Notes under the pieces: model-generated
Told to the model about the DNA's origin: nothing
The model's input: only the letters and a program-made list of their open reading frames with translations
Databases searched by the model: none
DNA from: Lepisosteus oculatus
Lineage: Eukaryota > Chordata > Actinopteri > Semionotiformes > Lepisosteidae
DNA length: 64,000 nucleotides
Direction of reading: 5' to 3'
NCBI RefSeq assembly: GCF_040954835.1
Contig: NC_090716.1
Coordinates: forward strand, 17,297,275-17,361,274
Made by a program: the position numbers and the translations under genes
Part shown: in pieces, positions 14,425 through 58,790 of the stretch
How the letters are laid out: every line of letters begins with the position of its first letter
How positions within the stretch are numbered: the stretch's first letter is position 1

Positions 14425-15045
14425 TCCGCGGGATCCGGACTTCCGGCTACGGAAAACCCGGAGTGGATCTGCCCTTCCACCGGATCCGGACTTCCGGCTA
14501 CGGAAAACCCGGAGTGGATCGGCCCTTTCACTGGATCCGGACTGCCGGCTACGGAAAACCCGGAGTGGATCGACCTTTCACTGGATCCGGACTGCCGGCT
14601 ACGGAAAACCCGGAGTGGATCGACCTTTCACTGGATCCGGACTGCCGGCTACGGAAAACCCGGAGTGGATCGGCCCTTTCACTGGATCCGGACTGCCGGC
14701 TACGGAAAACCCGGAGTGGATCGGCCCTTTCACTGGATCCGGACTGCCGGCTACGGAAAACCCGGAGTGGATCGGCCCTTTCACTGGATCCGGACTGCCG
14801 GCTACGGAAAACCCGGAGTGGATCGACCTTTCACTGGATCCGGACTGCCGGCTACGGAAAACCCGGAGTGGATCGGCCCTTTCACTGGATCCGGACTGCC
14901 GGCTACGGAAAACCCGGAGTGGATCGACCTTTCACTGGACCGGACTGCCGGTTACGGAAAACCCGGAGTGGATCGGCCCTTTCACTGGATCCGGACTGCC
15001 GGCTACGGAAAACCCGGAGTGGATTGGCCTTCCACTGGATCCGGA
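14425..15045 (+). repeat. 50/51-bp GC-rich minisatellite, 12 copies
   Basis: Each unit runs GGATCC, GGACTTCCGG or GGACTGCCGG, CTACGGAAAACCC, GGAGTGGATC and a variable CCTTTCAC or CCTTCCAC spacer. The first two units have the TTCCGG form, which contains the ETS/GABP core ACTTCCGG; the other ten have TGCCGG. Unit length of 50 or 51 bp leaves all frames open, which explains the long spurious frames here. Confidence 0.95.
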
Positions 15046-15240
15046 CTGTGAGCAGCTTTTGTCCAATCGGCGCTGAGATTTCAGCAGGAGGCGGGAGACA
15101 GGCTCTTGTCCAGTCACACAGCTTCAGTCCCGGGACTTTTCCGAATTCCGGCGGGCGGTGACACTTCCGAGAAATGTCCACTGGGTGGCGACAGAGATAC
15201 ACGGAGCTGAGTCTCAAAGCGCTATCGGAAAGACTTGAAA
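15046..15240 (+). promoter_or_regulatory. CCAAT/GC-box promoter-like block, alpha copy 1
   Basis: Directly follows the array. It contains CCAAT at 15,063-15,067, GGAGGCGGGAG (GC box) at about 15,084 and a CpG-rich GGCGGGCGGTGACACTTCC segment. It then has GAGAAATGTCCACTGGGTGG, a signature found in every alpha and beta module. A second CCAAT of the array-free version (36,098) has decayed to CCAGT. Promoter activity is inferred from motifs only. Confidence 0.5.
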
Positions 15241-15700: not shown

Positions 15701-15936
15701 GATTGAACATCAGAATGAATTATATTAATACAATTTCAGCGTATTTATCGTGTCTTGTATTTCTTTGTCTCTCTTATGTGTTCCCTTGTGTGTATGTTTT
15801 CTTGTATTTCCCGTGTCTGCATCGCTGGTTTATCGACCCGGCACATAAAGCAAACCCACTGTCCTCGTGTTTCTTAGCTCCCGTCTTGTTTGCAAACTTT
15901 TCTCCTGTGTTTATTTTACTTTGTCAATAAAACGTG

Positions 15937-15950
15937 GTTGCCGGGGAAAC
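15937..15950 (+). promoter_or_regulatory. RFX X-box-like palindrome, one half mutated
   Basis: GTTGCCGGGGAAAC. The left half-site is perfect and the right half (GGAAAC) has one mismatch to GGCAAC. AATAAA lies a few bases upstream. Confidence 0.5.
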
Positions 15951-16029
15951 GGTGCTGCAGAAGTTGTTGCGATCTGACCTCTAGGAGGTAAACAGTCGGC
16001 TTTTGTAATCTAATCAGCAAGCAAAGCAG

Positions 16030-16270
16030 AAACGTTAGTCTAAAAAGCGCTGGCTGGAGTATTTTGTGGACATTATGCAGAAGAAAAGGAAGAAACGGTG
16101 AGTCGCAGGCTGTCGGTAAATATCAGCGCTGGACACCAGCCTCACACCGCTGGGCTCACTGCACCATGAGCGAGTCCGTCGGCGCCTCCTCCTGCTGGGG
16201 TGTGTTACTGCAGGAGTGAGGAGTCTCCGGTCCCCGGTCGCGTCATGATCTGCAAGTGGAGGTGAAAGGC
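16030..16270 (+). other. Exon-like segment with splice donor, alpha copy 1
   Basis: The conserved CTAAAAAGCGCTGGCTGGAG segment ends in AAACG|GTGAGT at 16,097/16,098, a consensus 5' splice site. A second segment with ATGAGCGAGTCCGTCGG starts a 17-codon frame (at about 16,166) that stops at TGA. It may be a noncoding first exon driven by the X-box block. No protein is supported. Confidence 0.35.
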
Positions 16271-16279
16271 TGAGAGACG

Positions 16280-16460
16280 GTGCACATGCTCTGCACATGT
16301 TCTCATGTGTCTGGTTTCCTGGAGTGCTGTCTGTGTGGAGTTTGCATGCTCTGCTCATGTTCTCAAGGGTTTCCTGCCGCTTCTGCAGTCCAGTGTTGGT
16401 GAGTCTGTCGGGTTGATTGTGTTGTGGTGTGAGTGTGCCCTAAAGGGGGTTTTAATAGTA
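16280..16460 (+). mobile_element. tRNA-SINE body fragment
   Basis: Contains GGTTTCCTGGAGTGCTGTCT and GTGTGGAGTTTGCATGCTC in SINE order, then the GTCGGGTTGATTGTGTTGTG segment. A single copy of the motif that is tandemly repeated elsewhere. Confidence 0.6.
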
Positions 16461-21085: not shown

Positions 21086-22750
21086 TGAACTTGAACTTGA
21101 ACTTGAACTTTATTGCCATATGTAACCGGTACTGGTACAATGGAATTCTTACTTACAGAAAGTCTCTCGATTGTAAAACAAGTGTAAAAAAACAAAACAA
21201 AGTGCAAACAGTGCATCAAGACAATGTACAAACAAACAATAGACAATGTGCAAGTAAACATGCAGGCAGTTTGAATTTAAACAATACAGACGTGTAAACA
21301 ATGACTGGAGACGTACAATAAATAAATTACAATGAGGTAGATGGTGATGGTGTGGGTGTGGTCCGAGGGGGATGGCTAAATGTGTTCGCCAGTCTCACTG
21401 CTTGTGGATAGAAGCTATTGAAGAATCTAGTGGTAAGTGTCCGTATGCTCTTATATCTCTTGCCTGAGGGCAGTGGGGTGAAGAGCTCATGCCCTGGGTG
21501 GTGACTGTCCTCTATGATGGCCAGAATTCTACCACGGCAGCGGTCCTCATAGAGCTGTTTAATCTCGGTGAGACCGCAGCCGTCGATCTTCTGGGCCATA
21601 TTGACCATTCTCTGCAGTGCCTTTCTTTCTCGCGAAGAGGTGTTGCCATACCACACGGTGATCCCGTTGGTGAGGACGCTCTCGATAGTGCAGCGGTAGA
21701 AGTTCACCAACACATGTATTGGCATCCCCCAGCGCTTGAGGCACCTCAAGAAATAAAGGCGCTGCTGAGCCTTCTTCATGATAGAGTCAGTGTTCACAGT
21801 CCAGGTTAGATCTTTAGAGATGTGAATTCCCAAAAACCTAAAGCTGGTGACTGTTTCCACTTCCGTTCCATCAATACTGAGTGGGCTGTGAGTGTGTGGC
21901 CTGTGTCTCCGAAAGTCCACTATTAGCTCTTTCGTTTTCTTTATGTTCAAGTCCAGGTTATTGCTATGACACCACCTAAGCAGCTGTACAACTTCATCCC
22001 TGTAAGTGAACTCGTCATCATCACTGATCAGTCCTATTATAGTGGTGTCATCGGCAAACTTGATGATGCGGTTATTGCTGTGTCTTGCTGTGCAGTCGTG
22101 AGTAAATAGGGAGTACAACCTTGGACTCAGACAGCAGCCTTGTGGGGTTCCAGTGCTCAGGGTGAGTGGTGTAGATGTTTTATTGCCTATCCGCACCACC
22201 TGTGGTCTCTCGATAAGAAAGTCCAGCAGCCAGTTGCAGACAGAGTTGCACAGACCTAATCCCCTGAGCTTTGTCACCAGTTGACTGGGTATGATGGAAT
22301 TGAATGCTGAACTGTAGTCCACAAACAGCATTCTCACATACGAGTTCTTAGTGTCCAGGTGTTCCAAGGCTGTATGCAGAGCCAGGGAGACAGCATCATC
22401 CACTGATCTGTTGTTCTGGTAGGCGAACTGCAGGGGGTCCAGGGACTCTGTGATGGAGGAGTTGATGTGTGACAACACCAGCTTCTCCAGGCATTTCATC
22501 ACCACAGATGTTAATGCTACTGGGCGGTAATCATTCAGGCATGTCACTTTTGTCTTTTTGGGGGTTGGAACAATAGTGTTTTTTTTAAAGCAGGTGGGGA
22601 CCATGGACTGTGACAGGGAGGAGTTAAAGATGTCTGTAAACACTGTGGTCAGCTGGGCTGCACATGTCCTCAGGACGCGAGGTGGTATCCCATCAGGCCC
22701 TGCAGCCTTACGGGTTTTCACCCTGCTCAGAGTCTTCTGCACGTCCTGCT
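21086..22750 (-). mobile_element. L2-like non-LTR retrotransposon insertion, 5'-truncated
   Basis: About 1.67 kb absent from the sister copy, where the empty site is at about 50,934. On the minus strand it begins inside the reverse transcriptase and ends with GGCAATAAAG and a (TTCAAG)n tail at 21,086-21,110. The target duplication is at most 3-4 bp, as for CR1/L2 elements. The frame is intact, so insertion was recent and after the cycle 1/3 split or lost in neither copy. Confidence 0.88.
21327..22742 (-). CDS. L2-like reverse transcriptase, C-terminal part
   Basis: An uninterrupted frame of about 471 residues. Motifs in order: [70 protein letters not shown] and the catalytic [11 protein letters not shown]. 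Then comes the [15 protein letters not shown] thumb region and a C-terminal [19 protein letters not shown]. The N-terminal part of ORF2 including the endonuclease is missing through 5' truncation, so it cannot move on its own. Confidence 0.88.
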
Positions 22751-23177
22751 CTCGTGTTCCAGATCAGACATGAGCAATCCTATATTACAAATACTTACCA
22801 CCAGACAATTTAACCAGACAATAATTTAAGCAATTATTAATTCAACAGAAGCAGCAGGACGAATAAAGTGCCCCTCTGATGGCCGGTCAGTGGAATTAAA
22901 CTGGAAAATTTCTTAGAAATGATTATTCTTACAATAATGTGCCAATGGCGCCGCTTGGTGGTCATTCAGCAAAATTTCACCGAAAGTTTTTTTTCATTAA
23001 AATACCGTTAGTAATGTTGGTATTAATAAGTTATTTTAATTTTAAAAATATTTACGCATTTTCAACAGCAAAGAATACATTGCATTGCAAACAAGAGTAA
23101 TGAATGAATGTATTGTACATGGATACAAAATACAAAATAAATACAATAAACCAAAAATTAAAATGACATTCAAAAGG

Positions 23178-25210: not shown

Positions 25211-25627
25211 GATTTGATTGAGCATCAGAATTAATTATACAATGTCAGTGTATTTACCGTGTCGCGGATTTCTATGTCTGTCTTACAAGACGGACTCGGC
25301 AGGAGCTGTTTCTTGCTCTCCGGAGTGAAGCTGCTCTGGGAAGAGACGAGCAAATCTTCAGACTCTTTGTAAATGAGACATCATGACAGCTGTGCCGACC
25401 TGCTCTTTATTGACCTGTTGAACCTGTTTGTGTAAAAAGCGGGAGTCTTGTGTACCCCTGATTGTGTTATGTGTACTCAAGTGTGTTTGCAGCGCTCGTC
25501 CTGCCTGGTTTATCAACTCGACACAGAAACAAAACCCACTGCCGTCGTGTCTGTGGGTTTCTGAGCTCTCTTGTCTTGTTTGCAAACTTTTCTCCTGTGT
25601 TTATTTTACTTTGTTAAATAAAACGTG

Positions 25628-25641
25628 GTTGCCGGGGCAAC
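25628..25641 (+). promoter_or_regulatory. RFX X-box palindrome, beta copy 1
   Basis: GTTGCCGGGGCAAC: both half-sites are perfect with a 2-bp spacer, matching the RFX consensus GTNRCC-N-RGYAAC layout. Confidence 0.6.
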
Positions 25642-25742
25642 GGAGCTGCAGTAGTTGTTGCCGGAGCGGGTCTGACCTCCAGCAGGTCAACAGGCGGCTT
25701 TTTTAATCTAATCTGCGAGAGAAACAGAAATTTAAGAAACTT

Positions 25743-25975
25743 TAGTCTAAAAAGCGCTGGCTGGAGTATTTTGTGGAAGAAACGGTGACTCGCAGGCTGT
25801 GGGACAGGACTATCAGGGACACATCAGCGCTGGACACCAGCCTCACACCGCTGGGCTCACTGCACCATGAGCGAGTCCGTCGGCGCCTCCTCCTGCTGGG
25901 GTGTGTTACTGCAGGAGTGAGGAGTCTCCGGTCTCCGGTCGCGTCATGATCTGCAAGTGGAGGTGAGAGACGGCG
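25743..25975 (+). other. Exon-like segment, beta copy 1, donor mutated
   Basis: Same segment as at 16,030, but the donor reads AAACG|GTGACT (25,784/25,785) instead of GTGAGT. A second donor-like GTGGAG|GTGAGA follows at about 25,963. Confidence 0.35.
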
Positions 25976-26152
25976 GCGCAGTGGGTGGCAGCGCTGGGAG
26001 CCTGGATTTAGTTCCTGGGGTGCTGTCTGTGTGGAGTCTGCATGCTCTGCCTGTGTTCTCATGGGTCCTGTTCATGGGGTGCTGTCTGTGTGGAGTCTGC
26101 ATGCTCTGCCCCTGTTCTCATGGGTCTGGTTTCCTGGGGTGCTGTCTGTGTG
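25965..26152 (+). repeat. SINE head with short 60-bp array (about 2-3 units)
   Basis: The tRNA-SINE head GGCGGCGCAGTGGGTGGCAG, with a degenerate B box GGATTTAGTTCC, runs directly into units of GGGGTGCTGTCTGTGTGGAG, CTGCATGCTCTGCC and TTCTCATGGGTC. It is the shortest stage of the array that is huge at 54,221. Confidence 0.85.
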
Positions 26153-26410
26153 GATACCTGGTGAAGAGACCCAGTGAGTGTTTGTGTGGCCAGCTGCGTC
26201 AACTTCAATAAAACTGGCCTTTTGGTTTGTTTGAGTGCTGACTTGCTATGGTGTATTTTTTCTCTCTCTGAACAACACGTCCTACGGCCAACACTACCCA
26301 CACAGGAGGTGTGTGCGTGACAGCTCCTCAGCTGCAGCAGGAGTCCAAGTGTGAACAGATTTCTTGTTGGGTTTTGTTGTTTGAAGTTTCTGTTTGTATG
26401 TAGGAAGCAA
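26153..26410 (+). repeat. AATAAA-bearing duplicated segment, copy 2
   Basis: Same segment as at 18,655. Here it follows the short SINE-derived array directly; at 18,655 and 48,490 other sequence precedes it. Confidence 0.6.
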
Positions 26411-27794
26411 TTGTGCCATCGCGTGGTCCGAGTTATAGCACGGGACGAGAGCTCCCGAAGAGCGCCTGCCTCCTGCCCGATTCGACGTCTAAAATCATCC
26501 CAGAACGGTGAGGAGCCTCTGACACAGCCCCCAGTACTGGGTGTGCAGAAAGAATCCTATTGTACAGTTTTGGTGTGAAATGGCCTCCAGTTCTTGTAAC
26601 ATGATGGGTTTCTCTGGACTGCAGTCCCAGTGCACTCCGCTTTGGATTTGCAGTGGTGTTTTCTACAATGGAAAACCCTTTGTTTGTACAGAATGGAAAT
26701 GGCAGTCTGCATGTTTTAATAATCTAATGTGATCATGTACTACAGCTTAAACACTGAGCCAGGTGACGTTTGATTCTAAAAGATTTCTCTATCATTTCAG
26801 CAGCGCCTTGTCTGCGGCAGCCCGGCAGCTCCTCCTCCCTTCCAGCTGAGACTCTTCCCTCTCCAGAGGTGGGTTAGTGCTCTCAGGTCATCTTCTCTCA
26901 CACAGCTGCGGGGCAGAAACGCTACTTCCACTGGGCAGAGAGCAGACGGGCAGTGGGAAGGGCAGCCCTGTGTTTGGGGATCAGGGCTGTCCCTGCTGAG
27001 GGATGCTTTCAGAGCCAAAGCAACTGGCTGGGTTATGAACTTTATGGTGTGATCCAAATAAGACATAAAAAGACAGAGAATGAGAAAGAAATAGTATTGC
27101 ATGTATCTAATCAAAATAGTCTCTTTCAGACAAAACAAATATTGAACAAAAACTTAGTTGCAACACACTGCACTACACTTTCTTCTAGGCTGACATTACC
27201 GATAGTTTGTGCTATCTTCCTTTCAGTCTGCAGGGTGTGCATCTTTTTCCTCAGCTTCCTACATGAGGAATCAGTTTCTCCTGCCCTGGTTTCACTCCTT
27301 TATATCTCACAATCTTCTGCAGCTCCTGGAGGCTGACGACATGTTTGCTATTTCTGAAAAATTGCTGACTGGCTCATCAGCACAATTGCTGATTCAAAAT
27401 CATTTACTCACATGTTGCCTTAGCCTCTGTATCACAGAGATGTGTGCTTTTCTGGGTTGGATAAATCGATAGTGTGCTTTTGCTCAGTTGCTCTGCTCAA
27501 TGCGTGCTCTTTTAACTCCGGCTGGGTACGAGCACCTCACTCTCCACACGGCTTTCCAAGGCTCTGTCATCGTGTGTGAGGATGTTGTGTAGCTCGTGAA
27601 ACAGTTCCCCCATTTGAGCCCTGGATTTACTGGGTACTTGAATACCTGAATCTTGCCGTCAGTCCTGATCACCTTGTTTTTGTTCTGCAAGGACAAGGCA
27701 CCTCCCCAGCACTGAACACAAACTGATACTGGCGGGTTGATTGTGTTGTGGTGTGAGTTTGTGTCTGTGGGGGTGAGGTGTCCCCTGCAGCGCG
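26411..27794. other. Segment largely unique to cycle 1
   Basis: The first 300 bases resemble 18,940-19,160 and 57,120-57,230 in pieces (TTTCTCTGGACTGCAGTCCC). From about 26,750 to 27,720 I find no match elsewhere in the window and no gene. Several weak open frames lack domains. Confidence 0.45.
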
Positions 27795-27892
27795 AACAAA
27801 CATGCAGACTCCACACAGACAGCACCCCTGGAATCAAACCCAGGGCCCCGGTGCTATGAGGCAGCGATGCTAACCACTGTGCCGCAGTGTTG
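27795..27892 (-). mobile_element. tRNA-SINE head
   Basis: On the minus strand: GCGGCACAGTGGTTAGCATC (A box), CCTGGGTTTGATTCCAGGGG (B box), then TGCTGTCTGTGTGGAGTCTG. It shows that the 60-bp repeat unit starts just after the SINE B box. Confidence 0.8.
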
Positions 27893-27973
27893 CCCCCTTT
27901 GAAAATGTCTGACTTCCGTTTAATTTGAGGTCACAAGCTTATAAATGGTCTCACAACGTTTGTCTCATCTCAG

Positions 27974-32780: not shown

Positions 32781-33204
32781 GATGTAGAAATAGCCTAAAG
32801 ATGAGAAATAATCGAAAATTGAATAATTAGGCCGTATGTCGTAGTAGCAGATTGTACTTCTCGCCTACTTGATGTGGTCGAGCAACACCACAATCGCCAT
32901 ACAATCCGTCCGTTCTCATGCTCTGACTTTCAGGTTGGGCAGTGGACTGGATTCCAGGGCAAACTCGTTCTTGTTTGATTATCCGTGTGAAATCTCGCCC
33001 AATATAAAAGGTAAACTCATGCACTGAAATGATGCGCTTCCAAATTAAAGCGACACGCATTTGAATAATTCAAAATACACACGAGGGAACGTCTCCAAAC
33101 CATGTCTAAGTATCACAACATGAAAGCTGTGCGTACCTTATCTTTATTTGCCTGTATAATGTACTCCGGTGATCTGTAACGTAGTCTTGCGTGCATCGTA
33201 AAGG

Positions 33205-33765
33205 ATCCGGACTTCCGGCTACGGAAAACCCGGAGTGGATCGGCCTTTCCACCGGACCCGGACTTCCGGCTACGCAAAACCCGGAGTGGATCAGCCTTCC
33301 ACCGGATCCGGACTTCCGGCTACGCAAAACCCGGAGTGGATCGGCCTTCAACCGGATCCGGACTTCCGGCTACGCAAAACCCGGAGTGGATCGGCCTTCC
33401 ACCGGATCCGGACTTCCGGCTACGCAAAACCCGGAGTGGATCGGCCTTCCACCGGATCCGGACTTCCGGCTACGCAAAACCCGGAGTGGATCGGCCTTCC
33501 ACTGGATCCGGACTGCCGGCTACGGAAAACCCGGAGTGGATCGGCCTTCCACTGGATCCGGACTTCCGGCTACGCAAAACCCGGAGTGGATCGGCCTTCC
33601 ACTGGATCCGGACTGCCGGCTACGGAAAACCCGGAGTGGATCGGCCTTCCACTGGATCCGGACTGCCGGCTACCGAAAACCCGGAGTGGATCGGCCTTCC
33701 ACTGGATCCGGACTGCCGGCTACGGAAAACCCGCAGTGGATCGGCCTTCCACTGGATCCGGACTG
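33205..33765 (+). repeat. 50/51-bp GC-rich minisatellite, 11 copies
   Basis: Seven of eleven units keep the TTCCGG (ETS-core) form: units 1-6 and 8. Most of these have TACGCAAAACCC where the other arrays have TACGGAAAACCC, a cycle-specific variant that has spread within this array. The last unit has CGCAGTGG. Confidence 0.95.
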
Positions 33766-36990: not shown

Positions 36991-37409
36991 CAGATTTGAT
37001 TGAGCATCAGAATTAATTATACAATGTCAGTGTATTTACCGTGTCGCGGATTTCTATGTCTGTCTTACAAGACGGACTCGGCAGGAGCTGTTCCTTGCTC
37101 TCCGGAGTGAAGCTGCTCTGGGAAGAGACGAGCAAATCTTCAGACTCTTTGTAAATGAGACATCATGACAGCTGTGCCGACCTGCTCTTTATTGACCTGT
37201 TGAACCTGTTTGTGTAAAAAGCAGGAGTCTTGTGTACCCCTGATTGTGTTATGTGTACTCTAGTGTGTTTGCAGCGCTCGTCCTGCCTGGTTTATCAACT
37301 CGACACAGAAACAAAACCCACTGCCGTCGTGTTTGTGGGTTTCTGAGCTCTCTTGTCTTGTTTGCAAACTTTTCTCCGGTGTTTATTTTACTTTGTTAAA
37401 TAAAACGGG

Positions 37410-37423
37410 GTTGCCGGGGCAAC
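37410..37423 (+). promoter_or_regulatory. RFX X-box palindrome, beta copy 2
   Basis: GTTGCCGGGGCAAC, perfect in both halves. The flank reads AAACGGG rather than AAACGTG. Confidence 0.6.
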
Positions 37424-37519
37424 GGAGCTGCAGTAGTTGTTGCCGGAGCGGGTCTGACCTCCAGCAGGTCAACAGGCGGCTTTTTTAATCTAATCTGCGA
37501 GAAAAACAGAAACTTAAGA

Positions 37520-37750
37520 AACTTTAGTCTAAAAAGCGCTGGCTGGAGTATTTTGTGGAAGAAACGGTGACTCGCAGGCTGTGGGACAGGACTATCAGGG
37601 ACACATCAGCGCTGGACACCAGCCTCACACCGCTGGGCTCACTGCGCCATGAGCGAGTCCGTCGGCGCCTCCTCCTGCTGGGGTGTGTTGCTGCAGGAGT
37701 GAGGAGTCTCCGGTCTCCGGTCGCGTCATGATCTGCAAGTGGAGGTGAGA
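37520..37750 (+). other. Exon-like segment, beta copy 2, donor mutated
   Basis: Donor position reads AAACG|GTGACT at 37,566/37,567, as in beta copy 1. ATGAGCGAGTCCGTCGG is at about 37,650. Confidence 0.35.
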
Positions 37751-38086
37751 GACGGCGGCGCGGTGGGTGGCAGCGCTGGGAGCCTGGATTTAGTTCCTGT
37801 TCCTGTTCTCATGGGTTCGGTTTCCTGGGGTGCTGTCTGTGTGGAGTCTGCATGCTCTCCCCCCTGTTCTCATGGGTCCTGTTCATGGGGTGCTGTCTGT
37901 GTGGAGTCTGTATGCTCTGCCTGTGTTCTCATGGGTCCTGGTCATGGGGTGCTGTCTGTGTGGAGTCTGCATGCTCTGCCTGGGTTCTCATGGGTCCTGT
38001 TCATGGGGTGCTGTCTGTGTGGAGTCTGCATGCTCTGCCCCGTTCTCATGGGTCTGGTTTCCTGGGGTGCTGTCTGTGTGGATACC
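37745..38086 (+). repeat. SINE head with 60-bp array (about 5 units)
   Basis: Same head as at 25,965 (GGTGGGTGGCAGCGCTGG), then about five units of the GTGCTGTCTGTGTGGAGTCT repeat. This copy is intermediate in length between the arrays at 25,965 and 54,221. Confidence 0.88.
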
Positions 38087-38328
38087 TGGTGAAGAGACCC
38101 AGTGAGTGTTTGTGTGGCCAGCTGCGTCAACTTCAATAAAACTGGCCTTTTGGTTTGTTTGAGTGCTGACTTGCTATGGTGTATTTTTTCTCTCTGTGAA
38201 CAACACGTCCTACGGCCAACACTACCCACACAGGAGGTGTGTGCGTGACAGCTCCTCAGCTGCAGCAGGAGTCCAAGTGTGCACAGATTTCTTGTTGGGG
38301 TTTGTTGTTTGAAGTTTCTGTTTGTATG
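38087..38328 (+). repeat. AATAAA-bearing duplicated segment, copy 3
   Basis: Same order as at 26,153. Here it is fused directly to the SINE head at 38,329, whereas in cycle 1 about 1.4 kb lies between them. This marks a deletion or insertion junction. Confidence 0.6.
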
Positions 38329-38418
38329 AACAAACATGCAGACTCCACACAGACAGCACCCCTGGAATCAAACCCAGGGCCCCGGTGCTATGAGGCAGCG
38401 ATGCTAACCACTGTGCCG
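38329..38418 (-). mobile_element. tRNA-SINE head, second copy
   Basis: Near-identical to 27,795-27,892, with A and B boxes visible on the minus strand. Confidence 0.75.
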
Positions 38419-38508
38419 CAGTGTTGCTCCCTTTGAAAATGTCTGACTTCCGTTTTAATTTCAGGTCACAAGCTTATAAATGGTCTCACAACGTTTGTCT
38501 CATCTCAG

Positions 38509-43944: not shown

Positions 43945-44364
43945 AAGGATCCGGACTTCCGGCTACGGAAAACCCGGAGTGGATCGGCCTTTCCACCGGA
44001 CCCGGACTTCCGGCTACGGAAAACCCGGAGTGGATCGGCCTTTCCACCGGACCCGGACTTCCGGCTACGGAAAACCCGGAGTGGATCGGCCCTTTCACTG
44101 GATCCGGACTGCCGGCTACGGAAAACCCGGAGTGGATCGGCCCTTTCACTGGATCCGGACTGCCGGCTACGGAAAACCCGGAGTGGATCGGCCTTCCACT
44201 GGATCCGGACTGCCGGCTACGGAAAACCCGGAGTGGATCGGCCCTCCACTGGATCCGGACTGCCGGCTACGGAAAACCCGGAGTGGATCGGCCCTCCACT
44301 GGATCCGGACTGCCGGCTACGGAAAACCCGGAGTGGATCGGCCCTTTCACTGGATCCGGACTGC
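43945..44364 (+). repeat. 50/51-bp GC-rich minisatellite, 8 copies
   Basis: The first three units keep TTCCGG and the last five have TGCCGG, the same polarity as in cycle 1: ETS-core units lie at the upstream end. Confidence 0.95.
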
Positions 44365-45020: not shown

Positions 45021-45256
45021 CATTGAACATTAGAATGAATTATATTAATACAATTTCAGCGTATTTATCGTGTCTTGTATTTCTTTGTCTCTCTTATGTG
45101 TTCCCTTGTGTGTATGTTTTCTTGTATTTCACGTGTCTGCAGCGCTGGTTAATCGACCCGGCACATAAAGCAAACCCACTGTCCTCGTGTTTCTTAGCTC
45201 CCGTCTTGTTTGCAAACTTTTCTCCTGTGTTTATTTTACTTTGTCAATAAAACGTG

Positions 45257-45270
45257 GTTGCCGGGGAAAC
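45257..45270 (+). promoter_or_regulatory. RFX X-box-like site, right half mutated
   Basis: GTTGCCGGGGAAAC, the same mutation as at 15,937, so the change predates the split of cycles 1 and 3. Confidence 0.5.
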
Positions 45271-45349
45271 GGTGCTGCAGAAGTTGTTTCGAGCTGACCT
45301 CTAGGAGGTAAACAGTCGGCTTTTGTAATCTAATCAGCGAGCAAAGCAG

Positions 45350-45610
45350 AAACGTTAGTCTAAAAAGCGCTGGCTGGAGTATTTTGTGGACATTATGCAG
45401 AAGAAAAGGAAGAAACGGTGAGTCGCAGGCTGTCGGTAAATATCAGCGCTGGACACCAGCCTCACACCGCTGGGCTCACTGCACCATGAGCGAGTCCGTC
45501 GGCGCCTCCTCCTGCTGGGGTGTGTTACTGCAGGAGTGAGGAGTCTCCGGTCCCCGGTCGCGTCATGATCTGCAAGTGGAGGTGAGAGACGGCGGCGCGG
45601 TGGGTGGCAG
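45350..45610 (+). other. Exon-like segment with splice donor, alpha copy 3
   Basis: AAACG|GTGAGT at 45,417/45,418. Then ATGAGCGAGTCCGTCGG, a second donor-like GTGGAG|GTGAGA, and a SINE head with about one and a half 60-bp units to about 45,705. Confidence 0.35.
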
Positions 45611-45821
45611 CGCTGGGAGCCTGGATTTAGTTCCTGGGGTGCTGTGTGTGTGGAGTTTGCATGCTCTCCTTATGTTCTCGTGGGTCTAGTTCCTGGGGTG
45701 CAAAATTCTGTTTATTTCACAAGACGGACCCGAGCAGCAGCATGTGTCTGCAGCGCTCATCCTTCCTGCATGTTTGCAAACTTTTCTCCTGTGTTTATTT
45801 TACTTTGTTAAATAAAACGTG

Positions 45822-46110: not shown

Positions 46111-46129
46111 GACGGCGCACATGCTCTGC

Positions 46130-47389
46130 ACATGTTCTCATGTGTCTGGTTTCCTGGAGTGCTGTCTGTGTGGAGTTTGCATGCTCTGCTCATGTTCTCA
46201 AGGGTTTCCTGCCGCTTCTGCAGTCCAGTGTTGGTGAGTCTGTCGGGTTGATTGTGTTGTGGTGTGAGTGTGCCCTAAAGGGGGTTTTAATAGTATGGGG
46301 TTTGTGTGTTCACTTGTATGCAGACCACTGGAGAGACCGGTTGTTTTTTGCCAGGCAGACTAATGGCTGCATATTCAATTCCAGCTACTGATGTTGCCAA
46401 ACCAGCAAGTGGGACAGTGTTTGAAAACCCTTTCAATGAAAGGTTTGTAGAACAGTGTTGCTATTGTTCTGTTTAATTCGAGGTCACCAAGCTTATAAAT
46501 GGTCTCACAACGTTTGTCTCTTTTCAGGTTTCTCCGACCCGGAGAGTGAACAAAGAAGTGATAAGGGCCCATAACACCTAAGCTTGGCACTCTCACACTC
46601 TTCAGCCACACGAGCTTCCTCCTGGTAAAATACTGGGCAAGCCCCTTTCTGACAGGGACAGTGGAAAACCCCCTGAGGGAGATGGGCTGAGGGGAGGAAT
46701 AAAACCATCTGAGCCGGAACGGAGCGCGCTCCCGATTCCCACCAGACCCGGGAGACGACACAGGCAGCACAAGGGAAGCTGCGGAGCGCGAGTTCGCGGA
46801 GGCAAGGACCGATTGACGACCACGGGAGACAGTGGCATTGGAACAGAGGTACTGTACAGAGACTTTTAATACCTGAAGGCAAGGAGCGAGAAACCGGCCC
46901 GGCTAGCCGCTCCAAACTGAGGGGAATGGAATACAGTTCGCGGGAGGATTTCTAGTGGAACCTGAACGGAGTCTGGGGAAATGGGACCGGCCTCTCGTTC
47001 ACTGGGGCCATCAAAGACTTTACAGGTACGAAGAAGAATCGTTCGAGTGGCCACTCTTCGGTACTTGACAGAAAAGACTGCCGTCCCTCTGGATTCATTA
47101 TGACCCTTGGAAGGACCTTTTGTTGCTGCTGTTTTCGTTGTGTCTTTGGCTGATGGTGAATGTGGATAGAAAATAAAAAGGTCACTTATACGATACACAT
47201 GCTTGTCGCTGGTCTGTGTGGGCATTGGTGGATCTGGGAGATCAACAGAACCTGTGGTAATGGAGAGGGGCCCTAGCACCCTGTTTGCATTGCTAGGTGC
47301 CGTAGTCATATATGAGGCAGGAAATAATTCTTGTTTGAGGGGTCACCTCACTGTGACACGAACGTGTTGGGAAGACGCGCCAGTTCTGA
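46130..47389. other. Second copy of the 16.3-17.5 kb segment
   Basis: Near-identical to cycle 1, including the SINE-body fragment (46,140-46,300) and the acceptor-like TCTCTTTTCAG at about 46,527. No gene recognised. Confidence 0.6.
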
Positions 47390-53412: not shown

Positions 53413-53829
53413 GATTTGATTGAGCATCAGAATTAATTATACAATGTCAGTGTATTTACCGTGTCGCGGATTTCTATGTCTGTCTTACAAGACGGACTCG
53501 GCAGGAGCTCTTTCTTGCTCTCCGGAGTGAAGCTGCTCTGGGAAGAGACGAGCAAATCTTCAGACTCTTTGTAAATGAGACATCATGACAGCTGTGCCGA
53601 CCTGCTCTTTATTGACCTGTTGAACCTGTTTGTATAAAAAGCAGGAGTCTTGTGTACCCCTGATTGTGTTATGTGTACTCTAGTGTGTTTGCAGCGCTCG
53701 TCCTGCCTGGTTTATCAACTCGACACAGAAACAAAACCCACTGCCGTCGTGTCTGTGGGTTTCTGAGCTCTCTTGTCTTGTTTGCAAACTTTTCTCCTGT
53801 GTTTATTTTACTTTGTTAAATAAAACGTG

Positions 53830-53843
53830 GTTGCCGGGGCAAC
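53830..53843 (+). promoter_or_regulatory. RFX X-box palindrome, beta copy 3
   Basis: GTTGCCGGGGCAAC, both halves perfect. All three main beta copies keep it. Confidence 0.6.
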
Positions 53844-53941
53844 GGAGCTGCAGTAGTTGTTGCCGGAGCGGGTCTGACCTCCAGCAGGTCAACAGGCGGC
53901 TTTTTTAATCTAATCTGCGAGAAAAACAGAAATTTAAGAAA

Positions 53942-54170
53942 CCTTAGTCTAAAAAGCGCTGGCTGGAGTATTTTGTGGAAGAAACGGTGAGTCGCAGGCT
54001 GTGGGACAGGACTATCAGGGACACATCAGCGCTGGACACCAGCCTCACACCGCTGGGCTCACTGCGCCATGAGCGAGTCCGTCGGCGCCTCCTCCTGCTG
54101 GGGTGTGTTGCTGCAGGAGTGAGGAGTCTCCGGTCTCCGGTCGCGTCATGATCTGCAAGTGGAGGTGAGA
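53942..54170 (+). other. Exon-like segment with splice donor, beta copy 3
   Basis: The donor is AAACG|GTGAGT at 53,986/53,987, intact, unlike the GTGACT of beta copies 1 and 2. Confidence 0.35.
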
Positions 54171-54171
54171 G

Positions 54172-56928
54172 ACGGCGGCGCAGTGGGTGGCAGCGCTGGG
54201 AGCCTGGATTTAGTTCCTGTGGTGTTGTCTGTGTGGAGTCTGCATACTCTGCCCCTGTTCTCATGGGTCTGGTGTCCTGGGGTGCTGTGTGTGTGGAGTC
54301 TGCATGCTCTGCCCCTGTTCTCATGGGTTCAGTTTCCTGGGGTGCTGTCTGTGTGGAGTTTGCATAATCTGCCTGTGTTCTCAAGGTTCCTGTTCATGGG
54401 GTGCTGTCTGTGTGGAGTCTGCATGCTCTGCCTGTGTTCTCATGGGTCCTGTTCATGGGGTGCTGTCTGTGTGGAGTCTGCATGCTCTGCCCCTGTTCTC
54501 ATGGGTCTGGTTTCCTGGGGTGCTGTCTGTGTGGAGTCTGCATGCTCTGCCTCGTTGTCATGGGTCTGGTTTCCTGGGGTGCTGTCTGTGTGGAGTCTGC
54601 ATGCTCTTCCCCTGTTCTCATGGGTTCAGTTTCCTGGGATACTGTCTGTGTGGAGTCTGCATGCCCTGCCCCTGTTCTCATGGGTCTGGTGTCCTGGGGT
54701 GCTGTCTGTGTGGAGTCTGCATGCTCTGCCCCTGTAATCATGGGTCTGGTTTCCTGGGGTGCTGTCTGTGTGGAGTCTGCATGCTCTGCCCCTGTAATCA
54801 TGGGTCTGGTTTCCTGGGGTGCTGTCTGTGTGGAGTCTGCATGCTCTGCCCCTGTTCTCATGGGTCCTGTTCCTGGGGTGCTGTCTGTGTGGAGTCTGCA
54901 TGCTCTGCTCCGTTGTCATGGGTCTGGTTTCCTGGGGTGCTGTCTGTGTGGAGTCTGCCTGCTCTGCCCCTGTTCTCATTGGTCTGGTTTCCTGGGGTGC
55001 TGTCTGTGTGGAGTCTGCATGCTCTGCCCCTGTTTTCAGGGGTCTGGTTTCCTGGGGTGCTGTCTGTGTGGAGTCTGCATGCTCTGCCCCAGTTCTCATG
55101 GGTCTGGTGTCCCGGGGTGCTGTCTGTGTGGAGTCTGCATGCTCTGCCCCTGTTCTCATGGGTCTGGTGTCCTGGGGTGCTGTCTGTTTGGAGTCTGCAT
55201 GCTATTCCCCTGTTCTCATGGGTTCAGTTTCCTGGGGTACTGTCTGTGTGGAGTCTGCATGCTCTGCCCCTGTAATCATGGGTCAGGTGTCCTGGGGTGC
55301 TGTCTGTGTGGAGTCTGCATGCTCTGCCCCTGTAATCATTGTTCTGGTGTCCTGGGGTTCTGTCTGTGTGGAGTCTGCATGCTCTGCCCCTGTTCTCATG
55401 GGTCTGGTTTCCTGGGGTGCTGTCTGTGTAGAGTCTGCATGCTCTGCCCCTGTTCTCATGGGTCTGGTTTTCTGGGGTTCTGTCTGTGTGGAGTCTGCAT
55501 GCTCTGCCCCTGTTCTCATGGGTCTGGTTTCCTGGGGTGCTGTGTGTGTGGAGTCTGTATGCTCTGCCCCTGTTCTCATGGGTCTGGTTTTCTGGGGTGC
55601 TGTGTGTGTGGAGTCTGCTTGCTCTGCTCCTGTTCTCATGGGTCCTGTTCCTGGGGTGCTGTCTGTGTGGAGTCTGCATGCTCTGCTCCGTTGTCATGGG
55701 TCTGGTTTCCTGGGGTGCTGTCTGTGTGGAGTCTGCGTGCTCTGCCCCTGTTCTCATGGGTTCAGTTTCCTGGGGTGCTGTCTGTGTGGAGTCTGCATGC
55801 TCTGCCCCTGTTCTCATGGGTCTGGTGTCCCGGGGTGCTGTCTGTGTGGAGTCTGCATGCTCTGCCCCTGTTCTCATTGGTCTGGTTTTCTGGGGTGCTG
55901 TCTGTGTGGCGTCTGCATGCTTTGCCCCGTAATCATGGGTCTGGTGTCCTGGGGTGCTGTCTGTTTGGAGTCTGCATGCTATTCCCCTGTTCTCATGGGT
56001 TCAGTTTCCTGGGGTACTGTCTGTGTGGAGTCTGCATGCTCTGCCCCTGTAATCATGGGTCAGGTGTCCTGGGGTGCTGTCTGTGTGGAGTCTGCATGCT
56101 CTGCCCCTGTAATCATGGGTCTGGTGTCCTGGGGTTCTGTCTGTGTGGAGTCTGCATGCTCTGCCCCTGTTCTCATGGGTCTGGTTTCCTGGGGTGCTGT
56201 GTGTGTGGAGTCTGTATGCTCTGCCCCTGTTCTCATGGGTCTGGTTTCCTAGGGTGCTGTGTGTGTGGAGTCTGTATGCTCTGCCCCTGTTCTCATGGGT
56301 CTGGTTTTCTGGGGTGCTGTCTGTGTGGAGTCTGAATGCTCTGCTCCTGTTCTCATGGGTCCTGTTCCTGGGGTGCTGTCTGTGTGGAGTCTGCATGCTC
56401 TGCTCCGTTGTCATGGGTCTGGTTTCCTGGGGTGCTGTCTGTGTTGAGTCTGCGTGCTCTGCCCCTGTTCTCATGGGTTCAGTTTCCTTGGGTGCTGTTT
56501 GTGTGGAGTCTGCATGCTCTGCCCCTTGTTCTCATGGGTCTGGTTTCCTGGGGTGCTGTCTGTGTGTAGTCTGCATGCTCTGCCCCCGTTATCATGGGTC
56601 TGGTGTCCTGGGGTGCTGTCTGTGTGGAGTCTGCATGCTCTGCCCCTGTTCGCATGGGACTGGTGTGCTGGGGTGCTGTCTGTGTGGAGTCTGCATGCTC
56701 TGCCTGTGTTCTCATGGGTCTGGTTCCTGGGGTGCTGTCTGTGTGGAGTCTGCATGCTCTGCCCCTGTTCTCATGGGTCTGGTGTCCTGGGGTGCTGTCT
56801 GTGTGGAGTCTGCATGCTCTGCCCCTGTTCTCATGGGTCTGGTTTCCTGGGGTGCTGTCTGTATGGAGTCTGCATACTCTGCCCCTGTTCTCATGGGTCT
56901 TGTTCCTGGGGTGCTGTCTGTTTGGAGT
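54172..56928 (+). repeat. 60-bp SINE-derived minisatellite, about 45 copies
   Basis: The SINE head at 54,172-54,220 runs into units of TGGGGTGCTGTCTGTGTGGA, GTCTGCATGCTCTGCCCCTG and TTCTCATGGGTCTGGTTTCC. Marker variants recur at fixed distance: CTCCGTTGTCATGG at about 54,908, 55,686 and 56,403, and CTATTCCCCTG at 55,202 and 55,979. This shows a higher-order period of about 12-13 units (717-778 bp). The unit is 20 codons, so frames up to 644 codons stay open on both strands; these Cys-rich or TQTAPQ-rich frames are artefacts. Confidence 0.95.
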
Positions 56929-56930
56929 TG

Positions 56931-57300
56931 ATTAAAACAGTGACCTCCTTCCTCTACAGATTTTTTTTTTTATTCTGGTGGGATCATCTGCAGACTTGAT
57001 TCCTTTCACAGCAGTAGATACACAGTTGTTAGCATAGGAGGAGTAAAGAAGAGGTGACAGCAGTGCTGGGGACCCTGGTATCTCTTCCACTGAGGACCCT
57101 CTGGCACAACCAGAGGTGTGAAATTGCCTCCATTCTTTGTAAAATTAAAGGTTTCTCTGGACTGCAGTCCCCTCCCGCTTCGCTTTGGATATGCTGTGCT
57201 GTTCTCTACAACAGAAGACCCTTTGTTTGGAAGGAATGGGAAGCTAAAAGCAGAGTCACAATCTCTGATGCATCTAATCAAAACAGTAAGTTCTTTAAAA
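56931..57300. repeat. Diverged copy of the 24.1-24.4 / 52.3-52.6 kb segment
   Basis: Shares TTGATTCCTTTCAC, AGCATAGGAGGAGTA and GAGGACCCTCTGGCACAACC with both. It has extra sequence (57,126-57,230) matching 26,580-26,690 in part. More diverged than the three main cycles. Confidence 0.7.
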
Positions 57301-58040: not shown

Positions 58041-58048
58041 TGTTGAGA

Positions 58049-58790
58049 TCACACACTGTATTATTATTATTGAGAGACAGGCTCACTGTCTGTTCCTCAG
58101 GCTGGGACAGGAGATCACACACTGTATTATTATTGAGAGACAGGCTCACTCTCTGTTCCTCAGGCTGGGACAGTAGATCACACACTGGATTATTATTATT
58201 GAGAGACAGGCTCACTGTCTGTTCCTCAGGCTGGGACAGGAGATCACACACTGTATTATTATTATTGAGAGACAGGCTCACTGTCTGTTCCTCAGGCTGG
58301 GACAGGAGATCACACACTGTATTATTATTAGTGAGAGACAGGCTCACTGTCTGTTCCTCAGGCTGGGACAGGAGATCACACACTGTATTATTATTAGTGA
58401 GAGACAGGCTCACTGTCTGTTCCTCAGGCTGGGACAGGAGATCACACACTGTATTATTATTAGTGAGAGACAGGCTCACTGTCTGTTCCTCAGGCTGGGA
58501 CAGGAGATCACACACTGTATTATTATTATTGAGAGACAGGCTCACTGTCTGTTCCTCAGGCTGGGACAGGAGATCACACACTGTATTATTATTATTGAGA
58601 GACAGGCTCACTGTTCCTCAGGCTGGGGACAGGAGATCACACACTGTATTATTATTATTATTGAGAGACAGGCTCATTGTCTGTTCCTCAGGCTGGGGAC
58701 AGGAGATCACACACTGTATTATTATTATTGAGAGACAGGCTCACTGTTCCTCAGGCTGGGACAGGAGATCACACACTGTATTATTTCTCT
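58049..58790. repeat. 66-bp minisatellite, 12 copies
   Basis: The unit is GAGATCACACACTGTATTAT, (ATT)n, GAGAGACAGGCTCACTGTCT and GTTCCTCAGGCTGGGACAG. It varies by the number of ATT triplets, one missing CTGT and some GTGAG variants. On the minus strand it reads NNNTVCDLLSQPEEQTVSLS. The first unit on that strand continues from the LINE frame at 58,791, suggesting the source. Confidence 0.93.

Follow-up and report, generated by a model that had tools for sequence, protein, structure and literature searches.

A 60-bp minisatellite derived from a tRNA-type SINE in the subtelomeric macro-repeat of Lepisosteus oculatus

Results

A SINE-Derived Array near the End of C21

We analyzed a 64,000-nucleotide stretch of Lepisosteus oculatus DNA (C21:17,297,275-17,361,274; hereafter the window), whose end lies 43 kb from the end of the 17,404,774-base contig C21. 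The window contains six loci with a 60-bp unit or its parts, the largest being a minisatellite ending 50.6 kb from the contig end (Table 1). TRF found 45.4 copies of the unit in tandem with 90% matches at this locus, and segmentation gave 45 complete units, most of them 60 bp long (32) and the others 59 bp (12) or 61 bp (1), with a mean identity of 90%.

The 45-unit array is derived from a tRNA-type SINE. The first bases of its unit are the last ones of the SINE B box, and the rest is the SINE body downstream, as the sequence-only reading had proposed. The match to the two minus-strand SINE copies of the window (97% over 33 bp) identifies the unit as a portion of a known SINE and not of an unrelated satellite. 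The head before the array, in which no GGTTYGA-like B box was found, extends the terminal unit to the SINE end, and head and first unit together align to the SINE at 38.3 kb with 74 identities and 18 mismatches. A diverged full-length SINE (∼1,021-1,250) and a partial SINE at 11.6 kb have their blocks in this order too, which agrees with what we take to be the tRNA-type SINE consensus. No known RNA family or tRNA was detected, and a search of viral and bacterial collections for fish SINE sequences found none.

In the Haber-Louis model, minisatellites are born from 5-10-bp direct repeats flanking the founding unit (PMC6947457). A 9-bp direct repeat, 55 bp apart, is present at 16,313/16,368, at a locus that already contains a unit junction; such a repeat also occurs in 17 of 613 control stretches, and the SINE self-alignments searched for founding repeats were matched by 62-237 of 2000 shuffles.

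We regard it as hardly credible that selection acts on the array as a coding sequence or a Pol III transcription unit. Plus-strand stops are few, as coding would require (6, 3, and 4 in the three frames of ∼905 codons), but all three plus frames are nearly open and 13 of the 45 units are not 60 bp long and shift the frame; the Pol III reading was rejected as the array has no B box. A G-quadruplex array was likewise rejected, no motif being found with loops up to 12.

Table 1. Features of the window (positions in the window)
Feature	Position	Strand	Remarks
Headless locus, ∼1.5 units, then SINE-like 3' sequence	16285..16370	+	absent from the sequence-only reading
Inner locus, head and 2.4 units	25963..26154	+	
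SINE copy paralogous to 38325..38450	27794..27916	-	A/B-box region intact; 99% identical
Inner locus, head and 4.7 units	37745..38082	+	
Reference SINE copy	38325..38450	-	A/B-box region intact
Inner locus, head and ∼1 unit	45582..45701	+	absent from the sequence-only reading
Headless locus, ∼1.5 units, copy of 16285 locus	46120..46205	+	SINE-like 3' sequence; absent from the sequence-only reading
Upstream segment common to macro-repeat SINE loci	53500..54164	+	98.65% identical to 25,298-25,962 and 37,080-37,744
SINE head, 49 bases directly before array	54165..54213	+	A-box part retained; internal deletion; degenerate B box
60-bp minisatellite from SINE body	54214..56928	+	TRF and unit table; 45.4 units
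Higher-order block 1, units 12-24	54811..55588	+	aligned bases 96.4% identical to those of block 2
Higher-order block 2, units 25-36	55589..56305	+	marker spacing, unit-order alignment
Start of third block, units 37-40	56306..56544	+	97.5% identical to units 25-28
3' flank of outermost class	56930..57230	+	17 rows at 97-100% identity among the best 40 of 279 candidates

Duplicated Loci within the Window

The sequence-only reading had placed SINE heads at 25,965, 37,745, and 54,172, followed by about 2-3, 5, and 45 units; the heads were found at 25,963, 37,745, and 54,165, and TRF gives 2.4, 4.7, and 45.4 units. It had also taken these positions to be duplicates, which is confirmed by the upstream segment that all six loci of the window have in common; for 15,825-16,261 and 45,145-45,581, the blast identity to the segment at 53,500-54,164 is 80-82%. 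The copy number of other minisatellites in the same duplicates is far more even than that of the 60-bp array: the 51-bp one varies little (12.2, 11.2, and 8.3 copies), and a 69-bp one is also far less variable.

The window has several other features. A 50-51-bp minisatellite opens each duplicated block (14,431-15,048; 33,203-33,764; 43,947-44,364) and coincides with the left edge of the duplicated complex at ∼14,415. The headed loci stop partway through a unit (3' ends at 26,153; 38,081; 45,701; 56,928), with three unit positions represented, and these ends fall on rearrangement junctions. A 66-bp minisatellite at 58,045-58,785 has 11.3 units in the window and 15.3 at the matching place on C26. 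On the minus strand, an exon-like ORF that contains an IRF-3 Pfam domain (6e-31) lies on the centromere side of the macro-repeat (2,153-2,701), and a LINE reverse-transcriptase ORF of 478 aa is found in the first duplicate only (21,330-22,763). The upstream segment has GT splice-donor-like sites directly before the SINE and, near 53,840 and in the paralogues, a palindrome resembling what we presume to be the RFX X-box motif; on sequence grounds, a role as promoter and first exon is possible.

Higher-Order Blocks of 12-13 Units

Variant markers within the array had been said to recur every 717-778 bp, and we measured spacings of 778 bp (54,870 to 55,648), 717 bp (55,648 to 56,365), and 777 bp (55,169 to 55,946). 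The second tier of amplification that had been read from them, by blocks of 12-13 units, holds in the unit order as well: aligning units 12-27 with units 25-39 gave a score of 54.4, reached by 0 of 400 order shuffles (maximum 25.9), and units 18-21 are 99.2% identical to units 31-34. A cruder per-lag test gave a weaker result: 62 of 2000 shuffles equaled its maximum, at lag 13. The C26 array has a lag-13 signal too, though a weaker one (25.5 versus a shuffle maximum of 22.7). Since the remaining long arrays show lags of 3, 7, or 9 or none, the 12-13-unit block is not general.

The Array Belongs to a Subtelomeric Macro-Repeat

Among the scored candidates, the 60-bp unit has 706 matches in the genome. 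The array is contained in a macro-repeat of ∼17-18 kb that lies near many contig ends. The last 198 kb of C26 contains the macro-repeat in tandem, the dominant offsets being 17.1-17.8 kb, and matches most of window positions 14,415-64,000 at ∼94-99.6% mean best identity; the right end of C26 carries 4.1 kb of TTAGGG preceded by an N run of 7,500.

We queried the genome with 301 bp of upstream sequence and scored the best 40 of 280 candidates. Among these 40, 21 minus-strand copies lie within 190 kb of a contig start and 18 plus-strand copies within ∼230 kb of a contig end, so that all 39 copies on contigs of known length are near an end in the matching orientation, as expected of a subtelomeric preference; the remaining one is on C45. 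Telomere repeats are present at the right ends of C16, C19, and C26, and none were found in the last 300 bases of C12, C14, and C22 or in the first 300 bases of C7, C9, C19, and C27, which begin with N. On C22, the outermost array is 163 kb from a contig end without telomere repeats. Two loci of the outermost class defined below are an exception to the end location, lying inside the 60.0-Mb contig C14 (37,895,448-37,933,347), and would mark either an ancient fusion of chromosomes or a misjoined scaffold.

The flanks bear on the question of repeated origin. They are common to every locus with upstream sequence read, all drawn from the best-matching candidates, except the outermost locus of C12, whose array has no upstream segment. 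From the sequences, all loci read appear to descend from one ancestral SINE insertion carried by the macro-repeat.

The Outermost Array Is the Longest

On C21, the copy nearest the contig end is the 45-unit array, whose class has a 3' flank of its own. We searched the genome with this flank and scored the best 40 of 279 candidates, among which it is present at 97-100% identity as a single copy at 13 contig ends and as two copies on each of C14 and C45. The other 23 of these 40 are 93-94% identical and 22 of them are at the left end of C19, where the 93% form is repeated 22 times on the minus strand (C19:96,176-403,165; best 40 of 279), mostly at a spacing of 12-15 kb, beside an array of ∼115 units. 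At the loci of 2.4 and 4.7 units, the 3' flank is not this one but belongs to a type that also occurs on C10, C12, C22, and C26.

Array lengths differ among paralogous loci of this one assembly. Ordered from the inside outward, the arrays have 2.4, 4.7, and 45.4 units on C21; 2.9, 8.4, 18.3, and 52.1 on C16; 2.4, 2.4, 21.3, 21.3, and 34.0 on C12; 3.4, 16.3, 12.3, 15.3, 15.3, and 38.9 at the right end of C19; 2.4 and 28.3 on C22; 1.4, 1.4, and 48.3 on C7; 2.4, 2.4, 2.4, 3.4, and 32.1 on C10; 16.3 and 33.2 on C9; and at least 10.9, 2.4, 2.4, 2.4, 13.3, 2.4, 2.4, 2.4, 13.4, 13.4, 14.4, 26.6, and 33.4 on C26, the last eight being the headed or array loci of its last 198 kb. In all 9 of the 9 ends where two or more arrays were read, the outermost one read is the longest, a count that overstates the evidence because ends that trade sequence would not be independent observations. 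Over the 43 arrays, the two classes are completely separated by length (outermost 28.3-52.1 units; inner 1.4-26.6 units). Outside the count are C14, which is interior, and C19 left, C27, C28, C29, C31, C32, and C45, with fewer than two complete arrays read, and the counted ends omit some known loci (among them C7 at 133 kb, C9 at 112 and 131 kb, and C12 at 39.809 Mb). The outermost 3' flank is present on seven of the nine ends; none was found in the stretch read at the outermost arrays of C7 and C22. Many of the inner arrays of 8-21 units have lost the head.

The outermost arrays are also the more diverged. Their unit identity is 0.879-0.926 versus 0.914-0.938 in the inner arrays (P = 0.013, Mann-Whitney test; P = 0.023 after removal of near-duplicate arrays). 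Homogeneity tends to fall as arrays get longer (Spearman correlation of size and divergence 0.44, P = 0.037; 0.42, P = 0.067 after the same removal).

Nearness to the telomere could itself raise expansion, through late replication or break repair, instead of the outermost copy escaping turnover at the edge of the repeat. Inner arrays taken alone likewise lengthen outward, a trend equaled in 11 of 20,000 shuffles (282 of 20,000 with equal neighbors collapsed; in the first array set, 472 of 20,000 and thus weaker without C26). On the other hand, neighboring macro-units are copies of each other, and the interior C14 arrays with the outermost flank are long too (25 units read in one and ∼25 inferred from positions in the other), which means that class may matter more than position. 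We think a direct effect of the telomere unlikely, though it deserves to be kept in mind.

Unit Order and Exchange inside Arrays

For comparison of unit order, we used 537 complete units from 25 arrays, dropping units of fewer than 50 letters, as we did for the lag signals of the other long arrays. The outermost arrays of C21, C16, and C26 have 12-17 ordered identical units in common, as opposed to 0-2 in common with six inner arrays. Those of C21 and C26 align end to end, their four longest blocks being 97.9-99.5% identical. A single inserted block was considered as the cause of the difference between 45 and 33 units and was dropped, as the alignment has six gaps (60, 359, 11, 178, 60, and 71 bp).

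These comparisons bear on the claim that 2-3, 5, and 45 units form one expansion series, according to which the 45-unit array grew in place from its neighbors of 2.4 and 4.7 units after the duplication. Within the long array, the best counterparts of the units at the 26-kb and 37.8-kb loci are units 5, 6, and 12, which lie toward the 5' end, and the 98.65% identity of the flanks of the three loci also fits growth in place. Such growth is nevertheless improbable, and the claim in that form lacks support: the 45-unit array is the outermost member of the macro-repeat, and its unit order is shared with the arrays of C26 (33 units, aligning end to end) and C16 (52 units).

Two outermost arrays, C12_34 and C19_39, are chimeric. 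Each has one switch from inner-type to outermost-type units that fits 15 of 15 informative units, equaled in 3 and 0 of 5000 shuffles, respectively. C19_39 moreover combines the truncated upstream segment of the inner type with the outermost 3' flank, as predicted by a crossover inside the array. The unit order common to outermost arrays and the two inner-to-outermost chimeras show that exchange occurs inside the array. The arrays of C7, C22, and C14 form a separate lineage with few informative units.

Collapse or duplication of units or macro-units by the assembler is a very unlikely source of these patterns. An N run of 7,500 does precede the C26 telomere, but the measured arrays contain no N and unit orders differ among loci in structured ways.

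Discussion

The history that we consider probable combines one SINE insertion, an early 60-bp duplication, spread by the macro-repeat, unequal exchange, and the escape of outermost copies at the edge. A tRNA-type SINE would have inserted once into a segment that later became the ∼17-18-kb subtelomeric macro-repeat, and a 60-bp part of its body, from the 3' end of the B box, would have been tandemly duplicated before the macro-repeat spread over the chromosome ends. Unequal exchange within arrays and between macro-units, whether at one end or at different ends, would then have altered the unit number, by single units and by blocks (12-13 units in the window), and made chimeras. Inner macro-units would be turned over, keeping their arrays short and similar, while the outermost unit, with its unique flank, would partly escape turnover and keep the longest and most diverged array. 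The arrays themselves would be neutral in this history, and contraction of the inner loci is as possible as expansion. The unit order common to C16 and C26 and the flank at 13 ends imply that much of the array length predates the chromosomal spread or traveled along with it.

The closest known kind of sequence is the subtelomeric SINE-derived satellites (sSats) of squamates (PMC10702118). Their unit comes from a tRNA-type SINE around box B and the body, with 67 nt in snakes and 60 here, and they likewise have an extended unit to the SINE end, alternating unit variants, and a subtelomeric preference. In squamates, sSats occur at many loci and most variants are of independent origin in different taxa (PMC10702118), whereas the loci read here share their flanks and one insertion would have been spread by macro-duplication. 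The longer loci of snakes are more homogeneous (PMC10702118), whereas here the longer arrays are less so. The same text leaves open whether sSats are limited to squamates, and we found no report of a subtelomeric SINE-derived satellite in fish in the searched literature, from which subscription papers were mostly absent. Our observations suggest a separate origin of such satellites in a further lineage, with the tRNA-type SINE supplying the same part.

Other systems share single aspects. Growth of a part of a SINE is common, as shown by the Alu-derived minisatellites of humans, in which the part is tandemly duplicated and locally grown (e.g., 17 copies of 52 bp from AluJo); these are scattered single loci, mostly of 2-3 units, for which the accessible part of PMC3389668 describes no macro-repeat or end effect. 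The mouse B1-derived VNTR (Bois et al. 1998, cited in PMC6947457 and PMC9659126) is an unstable repeat from a SINE, but its unit is a 6-bp motif and not 60 bp. Human subtelomeric CEB1 and CEB25 are, like our array, GC-rich minisatellites near chromosome ends, and they raise rearrangement in yeast (PMC3486850); a SINE origin is not stated in the description consulted, and CEB1 depends on G-quadruplexes (PMC3486850), whose motif, with loops up to 12, is missing here.

The part of our results that could surprise specialists is the longest array being outermost, together with the chimeras. More tentatively, and with a somewhat lesser chance of being right than of being wrong, we propose that the SINE-born minisatellite promotes exchange as the preferred crossover site of the macro-repeat, including exchange between nonhomologous ends; the unit order would then record subtelomeric exchange, and the outermost array would be a slow-turnover archive of each end. 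Subtelomeres exchange DNA between nonhomologous chromosomes, and the near-identity of the sequences makes it difficult to locate the points of exchange. Each macro-unit here carries orderable units of ∼90% identity, and with two clean switches, the crossover position and edge effects become directly testable. The copies in the arrays record where subtelomeric blocks swapped DNA.
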